From contig NZ_JAQSDZ010000011.1 in assembly GCF_029946165.1 (NCBI RefSeq), positions 62,001-126,000 on the forward strand: a stretch of DNA of 64,000 nucleotides, written 5' to 3'. A model generated the notes under the pieces. It searched no databases and was not told the DNA's origin. It saw nothing but the letters and a program-made list of their open reading frames with translations. Position numbers and translations under genes: made by a program. Below are positions 11,641 to 31,335 of the stretch, one piece after another. This DNA comes from Methylotenera sp. Lineage in GTDB: Bacteria > Pseudomonadota > Gammaproteobacteria > Burkholderiales > Methylophilaceae. Position 1 is the stretch's first letter; the number at the start of each line of letters is the position of its first letter.

Positions 11641-11686
11641 TCAATATTGAGTTTATATTTTCAACATTATTAGCTCAATATTGATT
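11639..11686. terminator. Shared inverted repeat between convergent relA and response regulator gene
   Basis: AATCAATATTGAG (11639-11651) and its exact complement (11674-11686) form 13-base arms around a 22-base loop. Each arm overlaps a stop codon: relA on one side, the minus-strand regulator on the other. AT-rich and without a long U tract, so at best a weak bidirectional terminator. Confidence 0.45.
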
Positions 11687-12632
11687 ACTTTATAGTACGA
11701 ATCTTACTAGAAGCTAAAGCCGCAGCGGCCGTTCTTGTTTCTACGCCCAATTTAACAAACACATGCTCTAAGTGTTTATTTACGGTGCGGGGACTTGAAC
11801 CAAGTATGTCACCAATATCGCGACTGGTTTTACCCTTGGTGGCCCAGTACAACACTTCTGATTCGCGTATGGTTAATTTAAATATGGTCATCAATGCTTC
11901 TATCTGAGCGGCATCAGACTCTTCCCGGAGTAATATTACCCACTGCTCACTGTCATTAAGTTCTGCGGGAATAAAGTTTAAACGCCCTCTTCCTGAAACA
12001 ATCATCAAAGTGGATATGTCAGATTGTACTTCGTGAGCAAGTTTAACTTTTTCAATCCAAGATAATACTTGTGGCGGCGTTTTTGATTGAATTTGTGCGT
12101 AATGTTCAGGGAAGTAGCGCTGCATCCATTCCCTTGCAAGAGGTGTTTGCCAAACAATTTTTCCATTATGCGGTGTTATGGCAATTGCCGCTTGGCCAAA
12201 GGCATCTAAGGCACCACGCGCCTGATGCATTAAGCGCGAAGTTTGCATGTGTGCATCTATTCTCGCCAGCACTTCTATAGCTCGTATGGGCTTAGTAACA
12301 TAATCGGTTCCACCCGCCTGAAACGCTGCTACCACATGCTCTGACTCAGTCAAACCCGTCATAAAAATAATTGGAATATGACGCGTATTAATATCTGCTT
12401 TTAGCTTTCTACATACTTCAAAACCATCCATGCCAGGCATGATGGCATCGAGTAAAATAATCCCAGGCTGCGCTTCTAATGCGGCCACTAAGGCAGCTTC
12501 ACCATTATTAGCGACTAACACAGTAAAACCTGATTCATCCAATGCGTCATGTAGTACCGCCAAATTATCGGGCACATCATCGACAATCAGGACAATAGAA
12601 GCATCCTCTCGGCTTGGTTTTAAATTACTCAT
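11685..12632 (-). CDS. LuxR/NarL-type response regulator, partner of the NCS1 sensor kinase
   Basis: A 315-residue regulator from ATG 12632, chosen over an upstream in-frame start at 12653 because GGAAGAGA lies at good spacing. The N-terminal receiver has VDDVPDN, D62 in LLDAIMPGMDG and the conserved TKP lysine. A central PAS-like region follows (about 140-235). The C-terminal LuxR helix-turn-helix (about 250-310) reads LTIRESEVLYWATKGKTSRD then SSPRTVNKHLEHVFVKLGV. The start overlaps the kinase stop by eight bases (ATGAGTAA), so kinase and regulator are one translational unit. I infer it binds the palindromes found upstream of fmdA and fmdC; such dyads suit a dimeric LuxR-type protein. It ends the amide/urea gene array. 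Confidence 0.9.
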   Translation of the reverse strand: MSNLKPSREDASIVLIVDDVPDNLAVLHDALDESGFTVLVANNGEAALVAALEAQPGIILLDAIMPGMDGFEVCRKLKADINTRHIPIIFMTGLTESEHVVAAFQAGGTDYVTKPIRAIEVLARIDAHMQTSRLMHQARGALDAFGQAAIAITPHNGKIVWQTPLAREWMQRYFPEHYAQIQSKTPPQVLSWIEKVKLAHEVQSDISTLMIVSGRGRLNFIPAELNDSEQWVILLREESDAAQIEALMTIFKLTIRESEVLYWATKGKTSRDIGDILGSSPRTVNKHLEHVFVKLGVETRTAAAALASSKIRTIK

Positions 12633-15600
12633 CAGTATTAATCTCTTCCACAAACTTCTTCATGGCAGCTAGCTGAAATTGCTGTGCGAACTTTCTCATA
12701 GCGATAGCAAATACTTTATATTCAACATCTAAGCTTTCTATTTCATCTATTTTTTTAGAAATACCACGTACATATCCAATTTTCATTAGCGCTAACAACT
12801 CATCCAAATAAACTTTGGGTGGCGCAACTAAAATGGGTAAGAGGCTGGACTCTTCGGTTGGCAACGGCAGATTTTCTGACCCGGTAATCCATTCTAGATT
12901 AAGCTGTTTACCCAGCCAATCCAGCAATTCAGACAGCTCTACAGGTTTTAATATAAAGTCCGCCGCACCTATGCCTGCTGTATTTTCTAAGCCTTTATCG
13001 AAAGCATTTGCCGATACAATACCAATCGGCACATCAGATTGCCGCACCTTACGTATGACATAACTAGCCTCCCAGCCATCCATCATAGGCATCGCAAGAT
13101 CCATTAAAATTAGATCAGGATTGAATAATGTATGTTGTTCAAGACACTCTAGACCATTGGCGGCTTCAGCCATTTCAAACCCAAGCGGCTGAAGAAGGGT
13201 AACTAACATTTCCCTATCAATATATTCATTATCTACCACTAGTATTTTTTTTCTTGCGCCAATATAGCCAATACGCTGGGCAGCTAACACGGCTTCTATT
13301 TCTTGAGTTTTATGAATTTGTGGTAAAAATAATTTAATTTTGAATAGGGTTCCCTTCCCTACTACGCTGCTTACACTAATCTCGCCACCCATTAATTGCG
13401 TTAACAATTTACTAATGGTGAGGCCTAACCCCGTGCCGCCTATTCTATCGTTAGCTGCTGCGCTTCCTCTTGCAAATGGCTCAAATACCGTATCAATTTC
13501 ACTGGCTTGTATCCCAGGGCCCGTATCTTCAATCTCAATTTGCACAAGCTCACGTGCATATTGCACCCGAAAAACCACGCCTCCATGCTGGGTAAACTTG
13601 ACGGCGTTACCCAATATATTAATGAGTATTTGGCTTAAGCGCTTTTGGTCAGCGCGCACCATTTTTGGTAATTCACTCGTCACTTCATAGGCAAAATTAA
13701 TTCCTTTATTGCGCGCCTGCAACTCAAACATACTCACAATTTGCTTAATAAATTCTGGAAATCTTAACGGTTTGATATCAAAAGTGAGTTTGCCGCCTTC
13801 AATACGTGCAATATCGAGTGTGCCCTCAATGAGTGAGAGCAGGTGTTCCCCGCTACGCCGTATTACACGAATCGCTTGTAAACGACTATCTGGAATAGAC
13901 GTATCGTTATCTAATAATTGTGCATAACCTAAAATGCTATTTAATGGTGTACGCAGTTCGTGACTAATGCCAGTAATATAGCGGCTTTTGGCTTGGTTAG
14001 CTTGCTCTGCAATTTTACGTGCAAGCTGGAGCTCTGCATCGGTTTTCTGATGAAGCTCGATTTCACGTTGTAATAAACCTGTCTGACGATTAGATTCCTC
14101 TTGCGCTACTCGCCTGCTTTGCCCCGTTAATACCAACCACCAAGCAATAATAGCGCTTGCAAATACAAGTGCAGAAAATATCTTCAGATAGCCAGAACGT
14201 AATTGTGGCAATAAGCTGGCGGCGGTTTGCGCCAGCACTTGACTTTCATGGTAGTAAATTAACCATAGTAATGTACCTAAAAAAGTTAAGGTGACACTCA
14301 TCAGCAGTAAATAGGCACTTAAGCCCGAGTTTAAATACACCCATAAAGTTTTAGGCAATAGCTTTTTTAACGTAGTTTCCCATTGAACGGAAAACTTAGC
14401 GTCTGGTTTACAGGCATCGTTACAACGAGCGTCCAAACAACAACACAGCGAACAAATAAAGCCTTGATAAGCTGGGCAATGCGCCATATCTGGCGTTTCG
14501 TACTCACGCTCACAAACTGTGCATTTAGCGACTCGAGTTGTTGGACTGAATTTAATTGCCTGGCGGGCAATATAATATTTACCTTTAGTGAGCCAAGCAA
14601 TAATAGGCGAAGCGATCAATGCAGTAAATAATGCGATAAAAGCCGAAAACGCCTGTGGAACAGCGCCTAAAACGCCAGAAAATGCTGTGATAGAAAGCAT
14701 AGAAGCCAATAACATGGCACCCACGCCAACGGGGTTGATGTCATATAAATATGCGCGTCTAAACTCAATGCCTTTAGGGCTTAAACCAAGAGGCTTATTG
14801 ATGACTAAATCGGCCACAACGGCAGCAATCCATGCAATAGCTATATTTGAATATAAAGCCAATACCTGCTCTAAGGCTTTAAATACATCTAGCTCCATTA
14901 AAATCATTGCGATGCTGGCATTGAATACCACCCAAACCACGCGTCCAGGGTGGCTATGTGTTAACCGAGCAAAAAAGTTAGACCATGCCAATGAACCTGC
15001 ATAAGCATTTGTCATATTGATTTTAACTTGCGAGATGACAACAAATAACGCTGTCATGCCCAAGGCTAATTCTTTTGAGCTAAATAAATATTGATAGCCC
15101 ACTAAATACATTTGCGTGGGGTTGGTCGCCTGCAAAAATGACATATCACTTTGAATCACCAGATACGCCAATAAAACGCCTGCTGACATTTTTATCATGC
15201 CTAAAAATACCCAACCAGGGCCTGCAGTTAGTACGCCTAAGTTCCATCGCCAACGATTTTCAGGTGTCTTTTCTGGCATAAAGCGAAGAAAGTCGACTTG
15301 TTCACCAATTTGGGGAATTAAGGCCACACCAACCGCAGTTGCAGCACCAAAAAGAAGCAGGTTGAACTCACCCCGCTCGCCAGATGCACCTGCAAACAGC
15401 ATCATGCGTGAGATTATTTCTGGGTCTTGATGCAAGATAGCAAGAAAAGGCATGCACATGAGGATCAACCAAACAGGTTGTGTATACATCTGAATTCGAT
15501 TAATTAATGTAACGCCATGAATTACAAAAGGAATGACGATCAGAGCACTTACTAAGTAACCAATGTAAAGAGGTAGGTGAAAATACAGCTCTAACGCATA

Positions 15601-16071
15601 CGCCATAATGGCGGCTTCTAAGGCAAATAAAATAAATGTGAAAGAGGCGTAAATAAAAGATGAAATAGTAGAGCCTATATAGCCAAAGCTTGCGCCACGA
15701 GTGAGCAAATCCATGTCTAAGCCATACTTAGCCGCATAAAAGCTAATGGGCAGTGCGGTCAGAAAAATAATAACGCCCACAGCCAAAATTGCCCATAGCG
15801 CATTAATTGCCCCGTAATTCACCGCGATTGTGCCACCGATAGCTTCTAAAACTAGGAAAGAGATGGCACTTAAAGCGGTATTTGAAACACGGAAAATTGA
15901 CCACTTACGAAATGATCTGGGGGTGAAGCGTAGCGCGAAATCCTCAATAGATTCATTCGCCACCCACGTGTTGTAGTCACGGCGTATTTTAATGATACTC
16001 TGAGTTGGCTTGGCGTTTTCCAATAGCGCCAATGACAAATGATTAGGGTTCAATTCAACATCCGATTGCAT
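12625..16071 (-). CDS. NCS1 permease-histidine kinase-receiver fusion (sensor transporter)
   Basis: A 1148-residue protein from ATG 16071. Residues about 40-500 are a complete NCS1 (cytosine/purine/hydantoin-type) permease with roughly twelve membrane segments. It is followed by a nine-cysteine cluster at about 514-557 (CTVC...HCP...CSLCCC), two further membrane segments (about 570-660), a coiled linker, HisKA with H704 (SHELRTPL), HATPase_c (DTGPGI, GGTGLGL), and a receiver with D991 (LMDLAMPMMDG). The helical C-terminus is not a recognisable HPt. The architecture parallels CbrA/CrbS, where an SLC5 transporter is fused to a kinase, but uses a different transporter family. Lying after ureJ and overlapping its LuxR-type partner, it probably senses a nitrogen compound (urea, amide or pyrimidine/purine product). 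The ligand is inferred, not shown. Confidence 0.9.
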   Translation of the reverse strand: MQSDVELNPNHLSLALLENAKPTQSIIKIRRDYNTWVANESIEDFALRFTPRSFRKWSIFRVSNTALSAISFLVLEAIGGTIAVNYGAINALWAILAVGVIIFLTALPISFYAAKYGLDMDLLTRGASFGYIGSTISSFIYASFTFILFALEAAIMAYALELYFHLPLYIGYLVSALIVIPFVIHGVTLINRIQMYTQPVWLILMCMPFLAILHQDPEIISRMMLFAGASGERGEFNLLLFGAATAVGVALIPQIGEQVDFLRFMPEKTPENRWRWNLGVLTAGPGWVFLGMIKMSAGVLLAYLVIQSDMSFLQATNPTQMYLVGYQYLFSSKELALGMTALFVVISQVKINMTNAYAGSLAWSNFFARLTHSHPGRVVWVVFNASIAMILMELDVFKALEQVLALYSNIAIAWIAAVVADLVINKPLGLSPKGIEFRRAYLYDINPVGVGAMLLASMLSITAFSGVLGAVPQAFSAFIALFTALIASPIIAWLTKGKYYIARQAIKFSPTTRVAKCTVCEREYETPDMAHCPAYQGFICSLCCCLDARCNDACKPDAKFSVQWETTLKKLLPKTLWVYLNSGLSAYLLLMSVTLTFLGTLLWLIYYHESQVLAQTAASLLPQLRSGYLKIFSALVFASAIIAWWLVLTGQSRRVAQEESNRQTGLLQREIELHQKTDAELQLARKIAEQANQAKSRYITGISHELRTPLNSILGYAQLLDNDTSIPDSRLQAIRVIRRSGEHLLSLIEGTLDIARIEGGKLTFDIKPLRFPEFIKQIVSMFELQARNKGINFAYEVTSELPKMVRADQKRLSQILINILGNAVKFTQHGGVVFRVQYARELVQIEIEDTGPGIQASEIDTVFEPFARGSAAANDRIGGTGLGLTISKLLTQLMGGEISVSSVVGKGTLFKIKLFLPQIHKTQEIEAVLAAQRIGYIGARKKILVVDNEYIDREMLVTLLQPLGFEMAEAANGLECLEQHTLFNPDLILMDLAMPMMDGWEASYVIRKVRQSDVPIGIVSANAFDKGLENTAGIGAADFILKPVELSELLDWLGKQLNLEWITGSENLPLPTEESSLLPILVAPPKVYLDELLALMKIGYVRGISKKIDEIESLDVEYKVFAIAMRKFAQQFQLAAMKKFVEEINTDE

Positions 16072-16172
16072 CAATATTTATCAAGTATATTGTTGTAAGC
16101 AACAAACGTACCTTGAGCCAATGAAACTTAAGAATTTTAAATTCTATAAATTTATTTCCGATAAATATCCGA

Positions 16173-25716: not shown

Positions 25717-26961
25717 CTATTGATAACCTTTTGGGAATGGATCTGGTTTGATGTAGCCAGAGGTGTATACCACTTTTGCTTGACCATCTTTGCCCCATTG
25801 ACCAATACGTAACTTGGTTGTTAAGTGATGGTTTTTCTCAACAGTCACAGAACCTTCTGGTGCGTCTTTGAACACATAACCTGGTAATGCTGCTTGTACT
25901 TTATCTACATCAAAGCTACCAGCACGTTCAACTGCTGCTTTATATAACCATGGGCCTAAATACGCGGCTTGTGTTACATCGCCAATCACGGATTTTTCGC
26001 CGTATTTTGCTTTGAATGCAGTTACAAATTTCTTGTTTTCTGGATTATCCTGAGATTGAAAGTACTTCATGGCTGAGTAGAAACCAGCTAAGTTTTCACC
26101 ACCAATACCTAATACCTCGTCCTCTGTGACAGAAATCGTTAACATTGTTTGTTTCGTTGAATTTAAGCCTGCTGCATTCAACTGTTTAAACCATGCAACG
26201 TTACTACCACCCACCACAGCCGCGTAAATGACGTCTGGTTTTTTAAGTTTGATTTTGTTAATCACAGAACCAAATTGTGTATCCCCCAAAGCAATGTACT
26301 CTTCACCAACTACTGAGCCATGCAAATGCTGCTCAATATGTTTACGTGCGATTTTCATTGAAGTACGTGGCCAAATATAGTCAGAACCAATGAGGTAGAA
26401 AGTTTTAGCTTTTTTCTCTTTAGCAATCCAGTCCAAACCAGCTAGAATTTGCTGTGTTGCTTCTTGGCCTGTGTAGAACACGTTTTTAGATTGCTCTAAA
26501 CCTTCATAGAACGTTGGGTAAAAAAGCAAACCATTTTCTTTTTCAAATACTGGAAGTGCCGCTTTACGTGATGCTGATGTCCAGCAACCCATCACCGCTG
26601 CCACTTTATCTGAGGCAAGTAATTTTTTTGCTTTTTCAGCAAAAGTTGGCCAGTCTGACGCGCCATCTTCTTGAATCACTTCAATCTTACGACCCAAAAT
26701 ACCACCCATGGCGTTAATTTGCTCAATCGCTAATTTCTCAGCCTGAATAGAGCCAGTTTCACTGATTGCCATCGTGCCTGTAGCTGAATGTAAGATACCA
26801 ACTTTAACAGTTGTGTCTGTTACAGCTAGACCTGTAGTCATTACCTTAGCTGTTGAGGTGTCAGCAGCAAAAGCAGTATTAGTTAAAATACCGGCCGAAA
26901 GAAGTGCAGCAGCTAAAGCGCCACCAACTCTCATAAAGTTACGCCTATTTAAATTACTCAT
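25717..26961 (-). CDS. urtA: Urea/short-chain amide ABC transporter substrate-binding protein UrtA (FmdD-like)
   Basis: A 414-residue binding protein of the Leu/Ile/Val-binding fold. The start is ATG 26961, with AGGAG at good spacing; a longer frame to 27000 adds no signal. The N-terminus has a twin-arginine-type signal (NRRNFMRVGG followed by a hydrophobic stretch to TAFA, about residue 32), as cyanobacterial UrtA also has. Mature motifs include KVGILHSATGTMAISE and GCWTSASRKAALP, the latter part of the ligand cleft. In Methylophilus the corresponding protein binds urea and short amides. The ligand range cannot be read from sequence alone. Confidence 0.94.
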   Translation of the reverse strand: MSNLNRRNFMRVGGALAAALLSAGILTNTAFAADTSTAKVMTTGLAVTDTTVKVGILHSATGTMAISETGSIQAEKLAIEQINAMGGILGRKIEVIQEDGASDWPTFAEKAKKLLASDKVAAVMGCWTSASRKAALPVFEKENGLLFYPTFYEGLEQSKNVFYTGQEATQQILAGLDWIAKEKKAKTFYLIGSDYIWPRTSMKIARKHIEQHLHGSVVGEEYIALGDTQFGSVINKIKLKKPDVIYAAVVGGSNVAWFKQLNAAGLNSTKQTMLTISVTEDEVLGIGGENLAGFYSAMKYFQSQDNPENKKFVTAFKAKYGEKSVIGDVTQAAYLGPWLYKAAVERAGSFDVDKVQAALPGYVFKDAPEGSVTVEKNHHLTTKLRIGQWGKDGQAKVVYTSGYIKPDPFPKGYQ

Positions 26962-27046
26962 CACTCTGTCTCCTAAATTTAAAAAATAAAAAAACCACAA
27001 CTAAACTCATTTACTTCTTCTAACATTTACATCATTTTTTAGTGCT

Positions 27047-27412: not shown

Positions 27413-28636
27413 TTAGCTGGTTTTAGCAGTATCAATGCCTTGTTTCACCATCACTTTTGGCCCATCCGCATTTGGCTTCATATCGAAATCAAAAATCTCA
27501 GTTGGTAACCATAAAGTAGCGCAGGCATTAGGAATATCTACAATGCCGCTGATATGACCTTCGATAGGTGCTGTGCCTAAAATAGAGAGCGCTTGCGCAC
27601 CGGTGTAACCAAATTTCTTCATATACTCAATGGCATTCAAACAAGCTTGGCGATAAGCTTCATTCACATCTAAGTAGAGCTGCTTGCCTTGCTCATTGAC
27701 CGAAATACCTTCAAAAATGATGTAGTCTTTATAAGTTGGCGTGAGCACACTTGGTTCAAAAATAGGGTTTTTAATGCCGTATTTCTTCACGCCGTCTTTG
27801 ATTAAGCTGACTTTGATGTCTAAATAACCAGCCATTTCAATAGCACCACAGAAAGTGATTTCGCCATCGCCTTGTGAGAAGTGAAGGTCACCCATAGAGA
27901 GACCGCCATCTTTCACATACACAGGGAAATAAACCTTTGAACCTTTGGTTAGATTTTTAATATCGCAGTTGCCACCATGTTCACGTGGCGGCACTGTACG
28001 TGCGCCTTCCATAGAAGCTTTTTTCGCAGCCTCACCAGTTAATTTACCCATGACTGCAGAAGATGGGTTAGGTGGCAATGCCAGCGCAGGAACACGGTCA
28101 GGTTCTGTAGCAATCAAATCACCTTCACGTTGATTCCATTTCTCCAATAACTCTTTTGAAGGTAAGCAGCCGATTAAACCTGGGTGCATAATGCCGGCGA
28201 ATCTAACGTTTGGCACGTGGCGTGATGTGGTATAAATGCCATGAAAATCCCAAATAGATTTACGTGCTTCAGGATATTGATCAACTAAAAATCCGCCGCC
28301 ATTTTCCTTAGCGAAAATGCCGTTGAAACCCCACTGACTATCTTCAAAAGTGCCTACATCTAAAATTTCAACCACCATTAAATCGCCAGGTTCAGCACCT
28401 TCTACGCCAATTGGGCCACTTAAGTAATGTACTTGTGTTAAATCTACATCGCGTACGTCATTGGCGCTGTCATTGTTGCCAATTTGGCCGCCTGTCCAGT
28501 CCATGCACTCAACACGAAACTCATCGCCAGGTTTAACCATGGCAATCATAGGTAAATCAGGATGCCAACGATTATGAATTTGGCCTTCCTGCTCCCAAGG
28601 TTTTTTGTCTAAATCTAATTTAACTAACGTTTTCAT
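27413..28636 (-). CDS. fmdA: Formamidase FmdA
   Basis: A 407-residue acetamidase/formamidase-family enzyme that hydrolyses formamide to formate and ammonia. ATG 28636 is chosen because GGAGG lies seven bases upstream; the ATG six bases earlier overlaps that site. Family motifs are MDWTGGQIGNNDS, HYLSGPIGVEGAEPGD, GDLHFSQGDGEITFCGA with its conserved Glu and Cys, and VDIPNA. It is the first gene of the amide/urea array and lies behind a palindromic promoter module shared with the fmdC porin. Formate produced would feed methylotrophic C1 oxidation and ammonia would feed assimilation. Confidence 0.96.
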   Translation of the reverse strand: MKTLVKLDLDKKPWEQEGQIHNRWHPDLPMIAMVKPGDEFRVECMDWTGGQIGNNDSANDVRDVDLTQVHYLSGPIGVEGAEPGDLMVVEILDVGTFEDSQWGFNGIFAKENGGGFLVDQYPEARKSIWDFHGIYTTSRHVPNVRFAGIMHPGLIGCLPSKELLEKWNQREGDLIATEPDRVPALALPPNPSSAVMGKLTGEAAKKASMEGARTVPPREHGGNCDIKNLTKGSKVYFPVYVKDGGLSMGDLHFSQGDGEITFCGAIEMAGYLDIKVSLIKDGVKKYGIKNPIFEPSVLTPTYKDYIIFEGISVNEQGKQLYLDVNEAYRQACLNAIEYMKKFGYTGAQALSILGTAPIEGHISGIVDIPNACATLWLPTEIFDFDMKPNADGPKVMVKQGIDTAKTS

Positions 28637-28750
28637 TGGCATCCTCCAGCTTATATTTCAGATAAACTCACAAGTAAAAATCAACAAAATATGCATGTTT
28701 GCATGCATCAATCAATACCAACTTGCAGAGATATAGCGTTTTGCAATGGT

Positions 28751-28834
28751 GTTAGATTAAGGGCTTGGATGATGGAATGAAATACGTCAAATTGCGTAGG
28801 TGATAAACACTTTTAAAAGAGATTTTTGTGCTAA
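28751..28834. promoter_or_regulatory. Conserved divergent promoter module upstream of fmdA
   Basis: Palindrome TACGTCAAATTGCGTA (28783-28798, imperfect) sits between minus-strand fmdA and a plus-strand exported-protein gene. On the minus strand TTAATCTAAC (28751-28760), a -10-like block, would put the palindrome centre near -42 to -44, the class II activator position. On the plus strand TGTGCTAA (28827-28834) lies 27 bases after GCGTAGG. All blocks recur with identical spacing upstream of fmdC. This suggests one activator dimer serving both directions. No transcript data support the start sites. Confidence 0.7.
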
Positions 28835-28872
28835 TTTAATACCAATACTTTAGTGCGGAATGATTCAACTCT

Positions 28873-29289
28873 ATGATTAAAAAACAACTTCTAATGGGTG
28901 CTGTTTTACTCACAATATCCATCAATGTAATGGCAGTGGAATGGGATTCCATTATTAAGAAAGCCGATTATGAAATTTTTGTCGACATTGATTCTTACAA
29001 TGTTGCAAATGGCTTTCCCTATTTTTTAACTAAAACTATATTTAAGAAAAGTCAGTCATTGACTAACAAGAAAAAATTAATGACTTATCAATATGTAGTA
29101 AAAAATACGCAGTTCAATTGCAATCAACCTCTGTATAAAGTCACGTCATTGGATTTTTATAGCACGACAAATAAATTATTGATGTCGGAAAAATTAATGA
29201 ATGATTTCACAGCTTTAAAATCAGGCACAGATGAATACTCAATCGCCCAACTTGCTTGCCAAGTTCATAAAATGTTAGGTGGTAAATAA
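28873..29289 (+). CDS. Exported protein resembling surface-adhesin protein E, unknown role
   Basis: A 138-residue protein with a signal peptide (cleavage probably after VMA, residue 21), then a compact domain resembling the 'surface-adhesin protein E' family: WDSIIKKADYEIFVDIDSY, a central YQYVVKNTQFNC, and a final LACQVHKML. Two cysteines in the mature part could form a disulfide. Proteins of this kind are small periplasmic or envelope proteins without known biochemical role. It is divergent from fmdA and shares the conserved promoter module, so it is probably co-regulated with amide use. Confidence 0.75.
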   Translation: MIKKQLLMGAVLLTISINVMAVEWDSIIKKADYEIFVDIDSYNVANGFPYFLTKTIFKKSQSLTNKKKLMTYQYVVKNTQFNCNQPLYKVTSLDFYSTTNKLLMSEKLMNDFTALKSGTDEYSIAQLACQVHKMLGGK

Positions 29290-29325
29290 ATCGAATTTTT
29301 TAAGATTCATTAACATTAACTTGAC

Positions 29326-29362
29326 AAAAAAAGGCGCAGCAACATTTAAATGTTACTGCGCC
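29326..29362 (-). terminator. Rho-independent terminator of fmdC
   Basis: GGCGCAG (29333-29339) pairs with CTGCGCC (29356-29362), and the intervening AACATTT/AAATGTT extends the stem across one mismatch. On the minus strand the stem is followed by seven U residues (29326-29332). Ideal for ending fmdC transcription. Confidence 0.92.
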
Positions 29363-29392
29363 AAAGTGTTATCTTAGGAGATAAATACTGGT

Positions 29393-30538
29393 TTAGAACT
29401 GGAATTGCATTGAAACATTAATGGCATTGTTACTGTCTGAGCCAGACACTTTAGTATCTGAATAAGCCGCTGTCAGTAACGCATTGTAAGGAGCAATCAC
29501 GTAGTTAGTACCAATTTCCCATTTTTTGGTTGTATCAGCAGTTGTTGCATCAGACTCAAACTTTTGATAGCGTGCAAATGGCATAAACTTGCCCCAACCG
29601 ACAGCTTGGTTAAATAAATAAGCCGCACCTGCTGAATATGCTTTACCTTGCTCGCTTAAAAAGACATCATCGGTATCATAATCATAGTAAGCAGCCTCTG
29701 CGGAAACCGTACCTAGCCCAACGTCTTTTTTCTCCATTAAGAAATCTACGCTGTATGAGCTGTAGTCACCTGCTTTAGTTAAGCTAATAGCACCATCAGA
29801 CTTTTGTCTGCCCGCAATACCAATAGCTAAAATATCTGCTGCTCCAAAGTAATTGCCCGTACCATAGTAGCCTGGCTCTGCGTCCCAAAAGTCAACTTGA
29901 AGTCTGCCTGCGTACATTAATTTATCATCTGCATTCGTGGCTTTTGCAGCAGTGCTAGATTGTGATTGTGCATTTACACCACTAAATCTGAAAATGTTTT
30001 GGCCTTCAAATGCACCAAATGAATAACCAATTTTGTTATCCATTGCGCTACCAACAATTGCTACACCTTCATCGCGACCAATAATACCGCCATTCCAGCC
30101 GTAACGTGATGCGATATTAGACCAATACCCACCACCCATTGAGTAGTATGGGCCAGCCATGTTTGCGCGATCACTTGGAGATAAGAATCTACCTGCCCAA
30201 ATAGCGATTTCTGGTGTCATTTGCAATTGCACGTTAGCATCAATAATTTCCCAGCTTTCGCCATTACTTTTTTCTGTATTCAACATACCCTTGATGTATT
30301 TATTAAATGAACCTGATAGATACAGCCGCGCACTTTCCAAAGCAAAGTCGTTTGATCTACTTCCATCAGCAGCAGCATCTTCAACTGAGCTATAACCCCC
30401 ACGCATGCCAAAACCAACACTCACTGACTTATCATCTCCAAATGAAATTGTTCCGCCTGCCTGTGCACTCATTGCCGGTAACAACAGCATAGAACTTACA
30501 GCAGTTGCTAATAGGCTTTTCTTAAGTTTAAATGTCAT
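29393..30538 (-). CDS. fmdC: FmdC-type outer-membrane porin for short-chain amides/urea
   Basis: A 381-residue porin with a signal peptide ending near SAQA (about residue 27) and a beta-barrel pattern ending in aromatic Phe (SMQFQF), as required for BAM insertion. It resembles the phosphate-selective porin O/P superfamily, to which M. methylotrophus FmdC belongs; FmdC is induced by amides and urea. Single-gene unit with its own terminator. GGAG precedes ATG 30538. Its promoter region carries the perfect copy of the palindrome also seen at fmdA, supporting joint regulation with the uptake and hydrolysis genes. Confidence 0.88.
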   Translation of the reverse strand: MTFKLKKSLLATAVSSMLLLPAMSAQAGGTISFGDDKSVSVGFGMRGGYSSVEDAAADGSRSNDFALESARLYLSGSFNKYIKGMLNTEKSNGESWEIIDANVQLQMTPEIAIWAGRFLSPSDRANMAGPYYSMGGGYWSNIASRYGWNGGIIGRDEGVAIVGSAMDNKIGYSFGAFEGQNIFRFSGVNAQSQSSTAAKATNADDKLMYAGRLQVDFWDAEPGYYGTGNYFGAADILAIGIAGRQKSDGAISLTKAGDYSSYSVDFLMEKKDVGLGTVSAEAAYYDYDTDDVFLSEQGKAYSAGAAYLFNQAVGWGKFMPFARYQKFESDATTADTTKKWEIGTNYVIAPYNALLTAAYSDTKVSGSDSNNAINVSMQFQF

Positions 30539-30642
30539 TACAACTCTCCATTAATAAAAATATTGTCAGTCATACAAAAAAATCATTTGTTTTTATTTGT
30601 AGTTTTGGTGGAATAATTCAACATCACCTTTAAAAACATGTT

Positions 30643-30726
30643 GCTAGATTAACGAGACTCTAGTGACTGTGAAATACGCAATATTGCGTAGGCATAAACT
30701 AAGTGTTTCTTGGAAAAATGTGCTAA
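30643..30726. promoter_or_regulatory. Conserved divergent promoter module upstream of fmdC (perfect palindrome)
   Basis: A perfect 16-base palindrome TACGCAATATTGCGTA occupies 30675-30690. The minus-strand block TTAATCTAGC (30643-30652) lies at the same distance as at fmdA (17 bases from the common TGAAATACG), and TGTGCTAA (30719-30726) lies 27 bases beyond GCGTAGG on the plus strand, again exactly as at fmdA. Conserved blocks with variable bases between them point to protein-binding sites and promoter elements rather than a simple duplication. Confidence 0.75.
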
Positions 30727-30780
30727 CTTTGCAAACAATTAAAGTTGTTCAAATTGTTTATCAGTGAGGGTTTAGCAGAG

Positions 30781-31335
30781 ATGAAACATAATGAGGCAAG
30801 CAGATGGATTCAGACGAGTGTTCTACTGACCGCGTTACTACTGAGTGCTTGTAGCGAGATTGCCTATAAAAGAGGCGCTACAGCCAGTGATTTAGCCGCC
30901 ATGAAAAAAAATTGTACAGCGAAAGACTCTACAAAAGAGGCTATTGCAAAATGTATGGCTGATAACGGGTGGACTATTCAAAACTTAGACGGCGAAGAAA
31001 CTATAGCTTCAATGCAAAATGAGCCTGACCCTGTAATAGAAGCAACTGAAAATGCTGATAATCGGCAAATAGGAAAACCTGTGGTTGCAACTAAAACGAC
31101 CTCTACAGAGAAATCCTTTTCACAAAAGAAACTCACTGACCCTATGGACATGTTCCAAATAAGTTCGTGGTGGAAGTTAGGCGGTAGCCCTGATAATCTA
31201 AAGAGCTCAATCCAAGAATGCGTCAACTCACTAGGGGAGGCTCATGAGCCCGGTATACAAAGCAAAAAGGTGACTAGAGGCTTATTGCTATGTATGCAAA
31301 AAAAAGACTGGCACGGCTTACGCGAAAAACCATAA
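30781..31335 (+). CDS. Putative lipoprotein of unknown function
   Basis: A 184-residue protein from ATG 30781 (a TTG 36 bases earlier is in frame but gives no sensible signal peptide). The lipobox LLLSAC places the lipidated Cys at residue 24. The mature part has two similar short helical segments each containing a K/Q-x-C-M pattern (AIAKCMADNGW and LLLCMQKKDW) separated by a Ser/Thr-rich linker, which hints at a duplicated motif. No family was recognised. It is divergent from fmdC and downstream of the shared promoter module, so it may belong to the amide/urea regulon. A good terminator follows. Confidence 0.75.
   Translation: MKHNEASRWIQTSVLLTALLLSACSEIAYKRGATASDLAAMKKNCTAKDSTKEAIAKCMADNGWTIQNLDGEETIASMQNEPDPVIEATENADNRQIGKPVVATKTTSTEKSFSQKKLTDPMDMFQISSWWKLGGSPDNLKSSIQECVNSLGEAHEPGIQSKKVTRGLLLCMQKKDWHGLREKP

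Follow-up and report, generated by a model that had tools for sequence, protein, structure and literature searches.

The window, a 64,000-nt stretch of the genome of a methanol-consuming Methylotenera, contains two intergenic regions from which genes diverge, one between fmdA and a small gene for a secreted protein and the other between fmdC and a gene for an uncharacterised lipoprotein (Table 1). Downstream of fmdA follows a co-directional series with short gaps that comprises fmdB, urtABCDE, the urease genes, hupE, a hybrid kinase gene and a response regulator gene. The kinase (a HisKA/HATPase/receiver hybrid) is encoded by a gene that overlaps that of its cognate response regulator, and the helix-turn-helix of the latter is kept across families (LT.RE.EVL...RTVNKHLEH..KL.VETR). 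A strong terminator separates fmdC from fmdA in this Methylotenera genome. For the lipoprotein, searches of Pfam and NCBIfam gave no match, and its translation more probably begins with the ATG at 30781. The lipoprotein family is characterized by YKRGA near the N-terminus and by SSWWK and TRGLL.CM..KGW near the C-terminus, and in most of the genera examined its gene is divergent from fmdC.

Table 1. Features of the fmd-urt locus and the associated regulatory genes in the window
Feature	Coordinates	Strand	Remarks
LuxR/NarL-type response regulator, candidate regulator	11685..12653	-	Receiver + GerE; Pfam PF00072 5.8e-26 (receiver), PF00196 2.3e-14 (GerE helix-turn-helix)
Hybrid sensor histidine kinase	12625..16074	-	~500-aa membrane N-terminal domain
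urtA, urea ABC transporter binding protein	25717..27000	-	TIGR03407 4.8e-154; first urt gene, downstream of fmdAB
fmdA, formamidase	27413..28642	-	NCBIfam NF045496 FormamaseFmdA 5e-235; Pfam FmdA_AmdA
Predicted -10 of fmdA	28754..28759	-	TAATCT, 23 nt from dyad; position kept in 13/13 fmdA sites
Operator 1, fmdA // Adhesin_E-like gene	28783..28798	no strand	7-2-7 dyad TACGTCA-AA-TTGCGTA
Predicted extended -10, Adhesin_E-like gene	28827..28837	+	TGTGC-TAATTT, 33 nt from dyad, centre near -53.5
Small secreted Adhesin_E-like protein, divergent from fmdA	28873..29289	+	Pfam PF16747 8.7e-11
Intrinsic terminator 3' of fmdC	29333..29362	-	13-bp stem, then T7
fmdC-like outer-membrane porin	29393..30538	-	Weak NCBIfam porin_ExtI match below cut-off; position beside fmdA/urt; kept in 53 family genomes
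Predicted -10 of fmdC	30646..30651	-	TAATCT, 23 nt from dyad; position kept in 51/52 fmdC sites
Operator 2, fmdC // lipoprotein gene	30675..30690	no strand	Perfect palindrome TACGCAA-TA-TTGCGTA
Predicted extended -10, lipoprotein gene	30719..30729	+	TGTGC-TAACTT, 33 nt from dyad
Uncharacterised lipoprotein, divergent from fmdC	30745..31335	+	Kept beside fmdC across genera

The two intergenic regions (28751-28834 and 30643-30726) align without gaps in a single register, at an offset of 1892, and are identical at 46/84 positions when compared with each other. Four blocks are common to both modules: G[T/C]TAGATTAA, 17 nt, TGAAATACG, 4 nt, ATTGCGTAGG, 27 nt, GTGCTAA. The initial annotation had placed these blocks correctly and had recognized their constant spacing, except that the gap between TGAAATACG and ATTGCGTAGG, which reads TCAA in one module and CAAT in the other, is 4 nt rather than 6 nt. 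Given that the spacers (2/17, 1/4 and 8/27; 11/48, or 23%, in total) and the 60-nt flanks (34/120) match only at the chance level, the blocks are kept amid unrelated sequence, which argues against a recent copy of one region. The core of both modules, present also at relatives, is a NarL-like 7-2-7 dyad, TACGYMA-NN-TKRCGTA, in which 2 bp separate two inverted heptamers; it reads TACGTCAAATTGCGTA in operator 1 and TACGCAATATTGCGTA in operator 2, where the central palindrome is perfect, as originally described. The likeness is not due to chance: even when as many as 3 mismatches are tolerated, the spaced pattern of 50 nt occurs in only two places in the 2.94-Mb genome, namely the two modules (controls gave 0 matches), and the exact dyad TACGYMANNTKRCGTA likewise has two sites, again those of the modules. 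The motif is thus rare in the genome, and the possibility raised with the initial annotation, that it might be common genome-wide, is not borne out. The 18-nt core taken alone, with 3 mismatches, was not significantly enriched within the window (7 observed vs. 4.5 expected). Two candidates for a third site in the genome are unsupported: the closest near-match, C16:185568, has one mismatch and falls within a reading frame resembling that of an ammonium transporter, and C5:15011 adjoins topoisomerase-like genes. A scan of positions 28600-30900 against Rfam yielded nothing above the gathering score.

The position of the dyad relative to the flanking promoters is highly constrained. At a distance of exactly 23 nt from the dyad, on the side of the gene, a TAnnnT hexamer is found in 91/93 sites, comprising 51/52 upstream of fmdC, 13/13 upstream of fmdA and 27/28 upstream of the kinase gene, compared to a background frequency of 0.7% at other offsets. 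With the -10 fixed at 23 nt, the dyad centre falls near -43.5 from the predicted transcription starts, and the sites accordingly fit the class II spacing (centre at about -41.5 to -44.5, at a fixed distance to the -10). A generic sigma-70 scan showed no excess over shuffled sequences, and the sites depart from the standard -35/-10 promoter; this is the result expected of activator-dependent promoters. On the divergent side, TAnnnT occurs at 23-25 or 33-34 nt from the dyad in 63/65 of the fmdC and fmdA sites vs. 3/28 of the kinase sites, which serve as an internal control. In the 33-nt class, which includes both modules of the window, the hexamer is usually preceded by TGTGn, matching an extended -10. 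The claims that these regions combine regulator sites with two promoters, that the regulator sits in a class II position toward fmdA and fmdC, and that a single operator controls both directions all find support in comparative genomics.

The position of the divergent promoter differs between genera, and in two of them (g4 and g5) none is found. In the fmdA operator of a relative (L116:3257-3272), an 11-bp insertion on the divergent side places the extended -10 at 44 nt instead of 33 nt and keeps the helical phase. The divergent -10 positions thus appear to step by approximately one helical turn, as if the bound regulator had to face the polymerase, and the same operator would activate transcription in both directions. 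The variable distance (23-25, 33-34 or 44 nt) could also be taken to mean that the operator controls only fmdA and fmdC and that the promoter of the divergent gene is independent or constitutive, with the GTGCTAA block as its -10, all the more so as an extended TGTGn element can act without a -35. This reading appears unlikely, albeit worth retaining, given that the distances fall on successive helical turns and that the divergent -10 is missing at 25/28 kinase sites.

Of 187 genomes of Methylophilaceae, 51 have the response regulator and 53 have the porin, and these are mostly the same genomes. The exact dyad is present in 50/51 genomes with the response regulator vs. 13/136 without it (p 5e-32), a value to be read with the inheritance of the cluster as a block in mind, so that related genomes are not independent and the association within the family is, taken alone, no proof of the regulator. 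The initial annotation had asked whether the motif might be absent upstream of orthologous genes; the dyad precedes fmdC orthologues at 52/54 porin loci from 13 genera, and it also precedes the kinase and response regulator genes in 28/42 family clusters, from 9 genera, and fmdA in 13 family clusters. The motif-bearing records with named contigs belong to Methylotenera, Methylobacillus and Pseudomethylobacillus, along with one bin labelled Geobacteraceae. A contig of the latter bin (L110:44-95) carries the dyad together with TGTGCTAA and may represent a binning error or a transfer.

Outside the family, a search of 399 genomes from the order detected the response regulator in 59. For the regions near the response regulator and those upstream of urtA, in genomes with and without it, the scan used a dyad consensus and a promoter spacing (22-24 nt allowed) that had been fixed from the family beforehand. 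A promoter-type dyad was detected upstream of urtA or fmdC in 33/47 genomes with the response regulator vs. 1/49 genomes without it (p 2e-13), the latter being the subset of regulator-less genomes with the best urtA matches, and shuffled upstream regions gave 0 sites at the score used. The sole positive genome without the response regulator is 64% complete and belongs to a genus in which the regulator is common; conversely, 14/47 genomes with the regulator have no promoter-type site at the urtA or fmdC copies examined. In several genomes with the regulator, urtA is distant from it or on another contig (1.65 Mb away in G386), and linkage is therefore no explanation of the association. The LuxR-type response regulator proposed in the initial annotation thus appears to be a well-supported candidate, the dyad tracking it both inside and outside the family. 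An alternative is that another nitrogen regulator, one that travels with the urea and amide genes, binds the dyad, the kinase-response regulator pair being one of its targets. The presence of the dyad before the kinase gene is as consistent with a target as with a source that regulates itself, and the Methylophilus fmd cluster is said, in passages of the report on it, to encode a putative positive regulator that by its position in the list would be FmdB (PMC10781810). Nevertheless, we consider this alternative improbable, given the near absence of the site from urtA in genomes without the response regulator, its retention in unlinked form in genomes with it, and the length and symmetry of the dyad, which suit a dimer of the NarL type, the class to which the response regulator belongs.

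The second operator at fmdA coincides with a split of the operon. In family clusters where fmdC and fmdA are separated by 37-121 bp, the fmdA operator is found in 0/32, compared to 13/13 (window included) where the gap exceeds 700 bp; the gene inserted in these 13 split clusters is of the Adhesin_E type. Thus, the split of the operon went together with the second operator. The description of the module as duplicated holds in the sense of a second, functionally matched operator but not in that of a recent copy: the regions are 1.9 kb apart in the same orientation and the second is found only beside the inserted gene, yet recent copying of one intergenic region is highly improbable, given identical blocks amid chance-level spacers and flanks and the distinct dyad variant that each region retains from species to species within the genus. 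An ancient copy of one region may have occurred.

Taken with the observed geometry, conservation and association with the response regulator (unlinked cases included), the sequences make it very likely that each intergenic region is a conserved class II operator-promoter of the kinase-response regulator pair (11685-16074) that activates urea and amide uptake as well as synthesis of the pair itself. We infer a mechanism in which the kinase phosphorylates the LuxR/NarL-type response regulator, a dimer of which would bind the 16-bp dyad as two inverted heptamers and, positioned near -43.5, would take the place of the -35 and recruit RNA polymerase to the -10 of fmdA or fmdC. A regulator bound at this dyad would also reach the extended -10 that serves the divergent gene for a secreted protein, at a distance greater by one helical turn (near -53.5). 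The fmdC gene would form a single-gene unit closed by the terminator, so that a second operator, that of fmdA, would drive the co-directional run fmdAB-urtABCDE-ureDABCEFG-hupE-kinase-response regulator; with the kinase and response regulator genes included in this run, the regulator would be under its own control. No dyad was found before the kinase gene or urtA in the Methylotenera genome of the window, and autoregulation in this genome would therefore depend on read-through. Binding and activation, rather than repression, are what we infer for the response regulator, and a repressing or mixed role may be equally compatible with the sequence.

Urea or a short amide probably serves as the signal, perhaps when nitrogen is limiting. 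The multi-spanning N-terminal membrane domain of the kinase (~500 aa) is highly conserved, and neither the single sequence nor a 17-sequence profile matched anything in Pfam or the PDB, NCS1 transporters included. Judging by its appearance, one might guess at a transporter-like sensor. It is conceivable, as a tentative extension of the model, that this domain reads urea or short amides directly and that the system represents a widespread, undescribed organic-nitrogen regulon in which a single operator serves two helically phased divergent promoters.

The architecture, a NarL-type operator in a class II promoter, is of a known kind. The heptamer consensus of Escherichia coli NarL and NarP is TACYYMT, to which the heptamer of the window, TACGYMA, with G at position 4 and A at position 7, does not conform. 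The likeness lies in a pair of heptamers in inverted orientation, 2 bp apart and with TAC...GTA at the ends, bound in E. coli by a dimer of a receiver-GerE response regulator. The 7-2-7 operators of E. coli are located at -40/-49 in napF and -38/-47 in yeaR, and the NarL site of ogt1052 is centred at -44.5, 32 bp from the -10 (PMC4549865; PMC9314961), close to the arrangement in the window, where the sites lie near -43.5, 31 bp from the -10; an engineered narG site reads TACCCCTAAAGGGGTA, with the heptamer TACCCCT (PMC4549865). The window system differs in its probable signal (urea or amide), in the use of one site for divergent promoters, in the long linker between the receiver and GerE domains of the response regulator and in the multi-spanning membrane domain of the kinase. 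As in class II promoters of the CRP-like type, the activator would overlap the -35 and only a -10 would be needed, but here the centre is near -43.5 and the same dyad would also serve a promoter one turn further out. The fmdCABDEF cluster of Methylophilus methylotrophus contains the same genes as the window (porin, formamidase, FmdB and amide/urea transporter) and, according to passages of the report that concern it, is induced by formamide and urea and repressed by ammonia; these passages name no operator or two-component regulator for the cluster (PMC10781810), and the window differs in that its operon is interrupted and carries two operators. In a literature search that covered subscription journals incompletely, we found no description of the regulator, the regulon, the operator sequence or its two-way use.

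For the induction of urea and formamide genes, a testable regulator, operator and promoter geometry can now be named, and the same circuit extends to numerous families of the order. As urea is a common nitrogen source in the environment, the operator could serve as a sequence marker of genomes with inducible urea and amide uptake. The shifting position of the divergent promoter provides a natural experiment on the action of a NarL-type activator over different distances. A genome of another family has a symmetric two-way version (L262:14032-14047), in which each flank of a single dyad carries a -10 at a distance of 23 nt, one facing urtA and the other the kinase gene.
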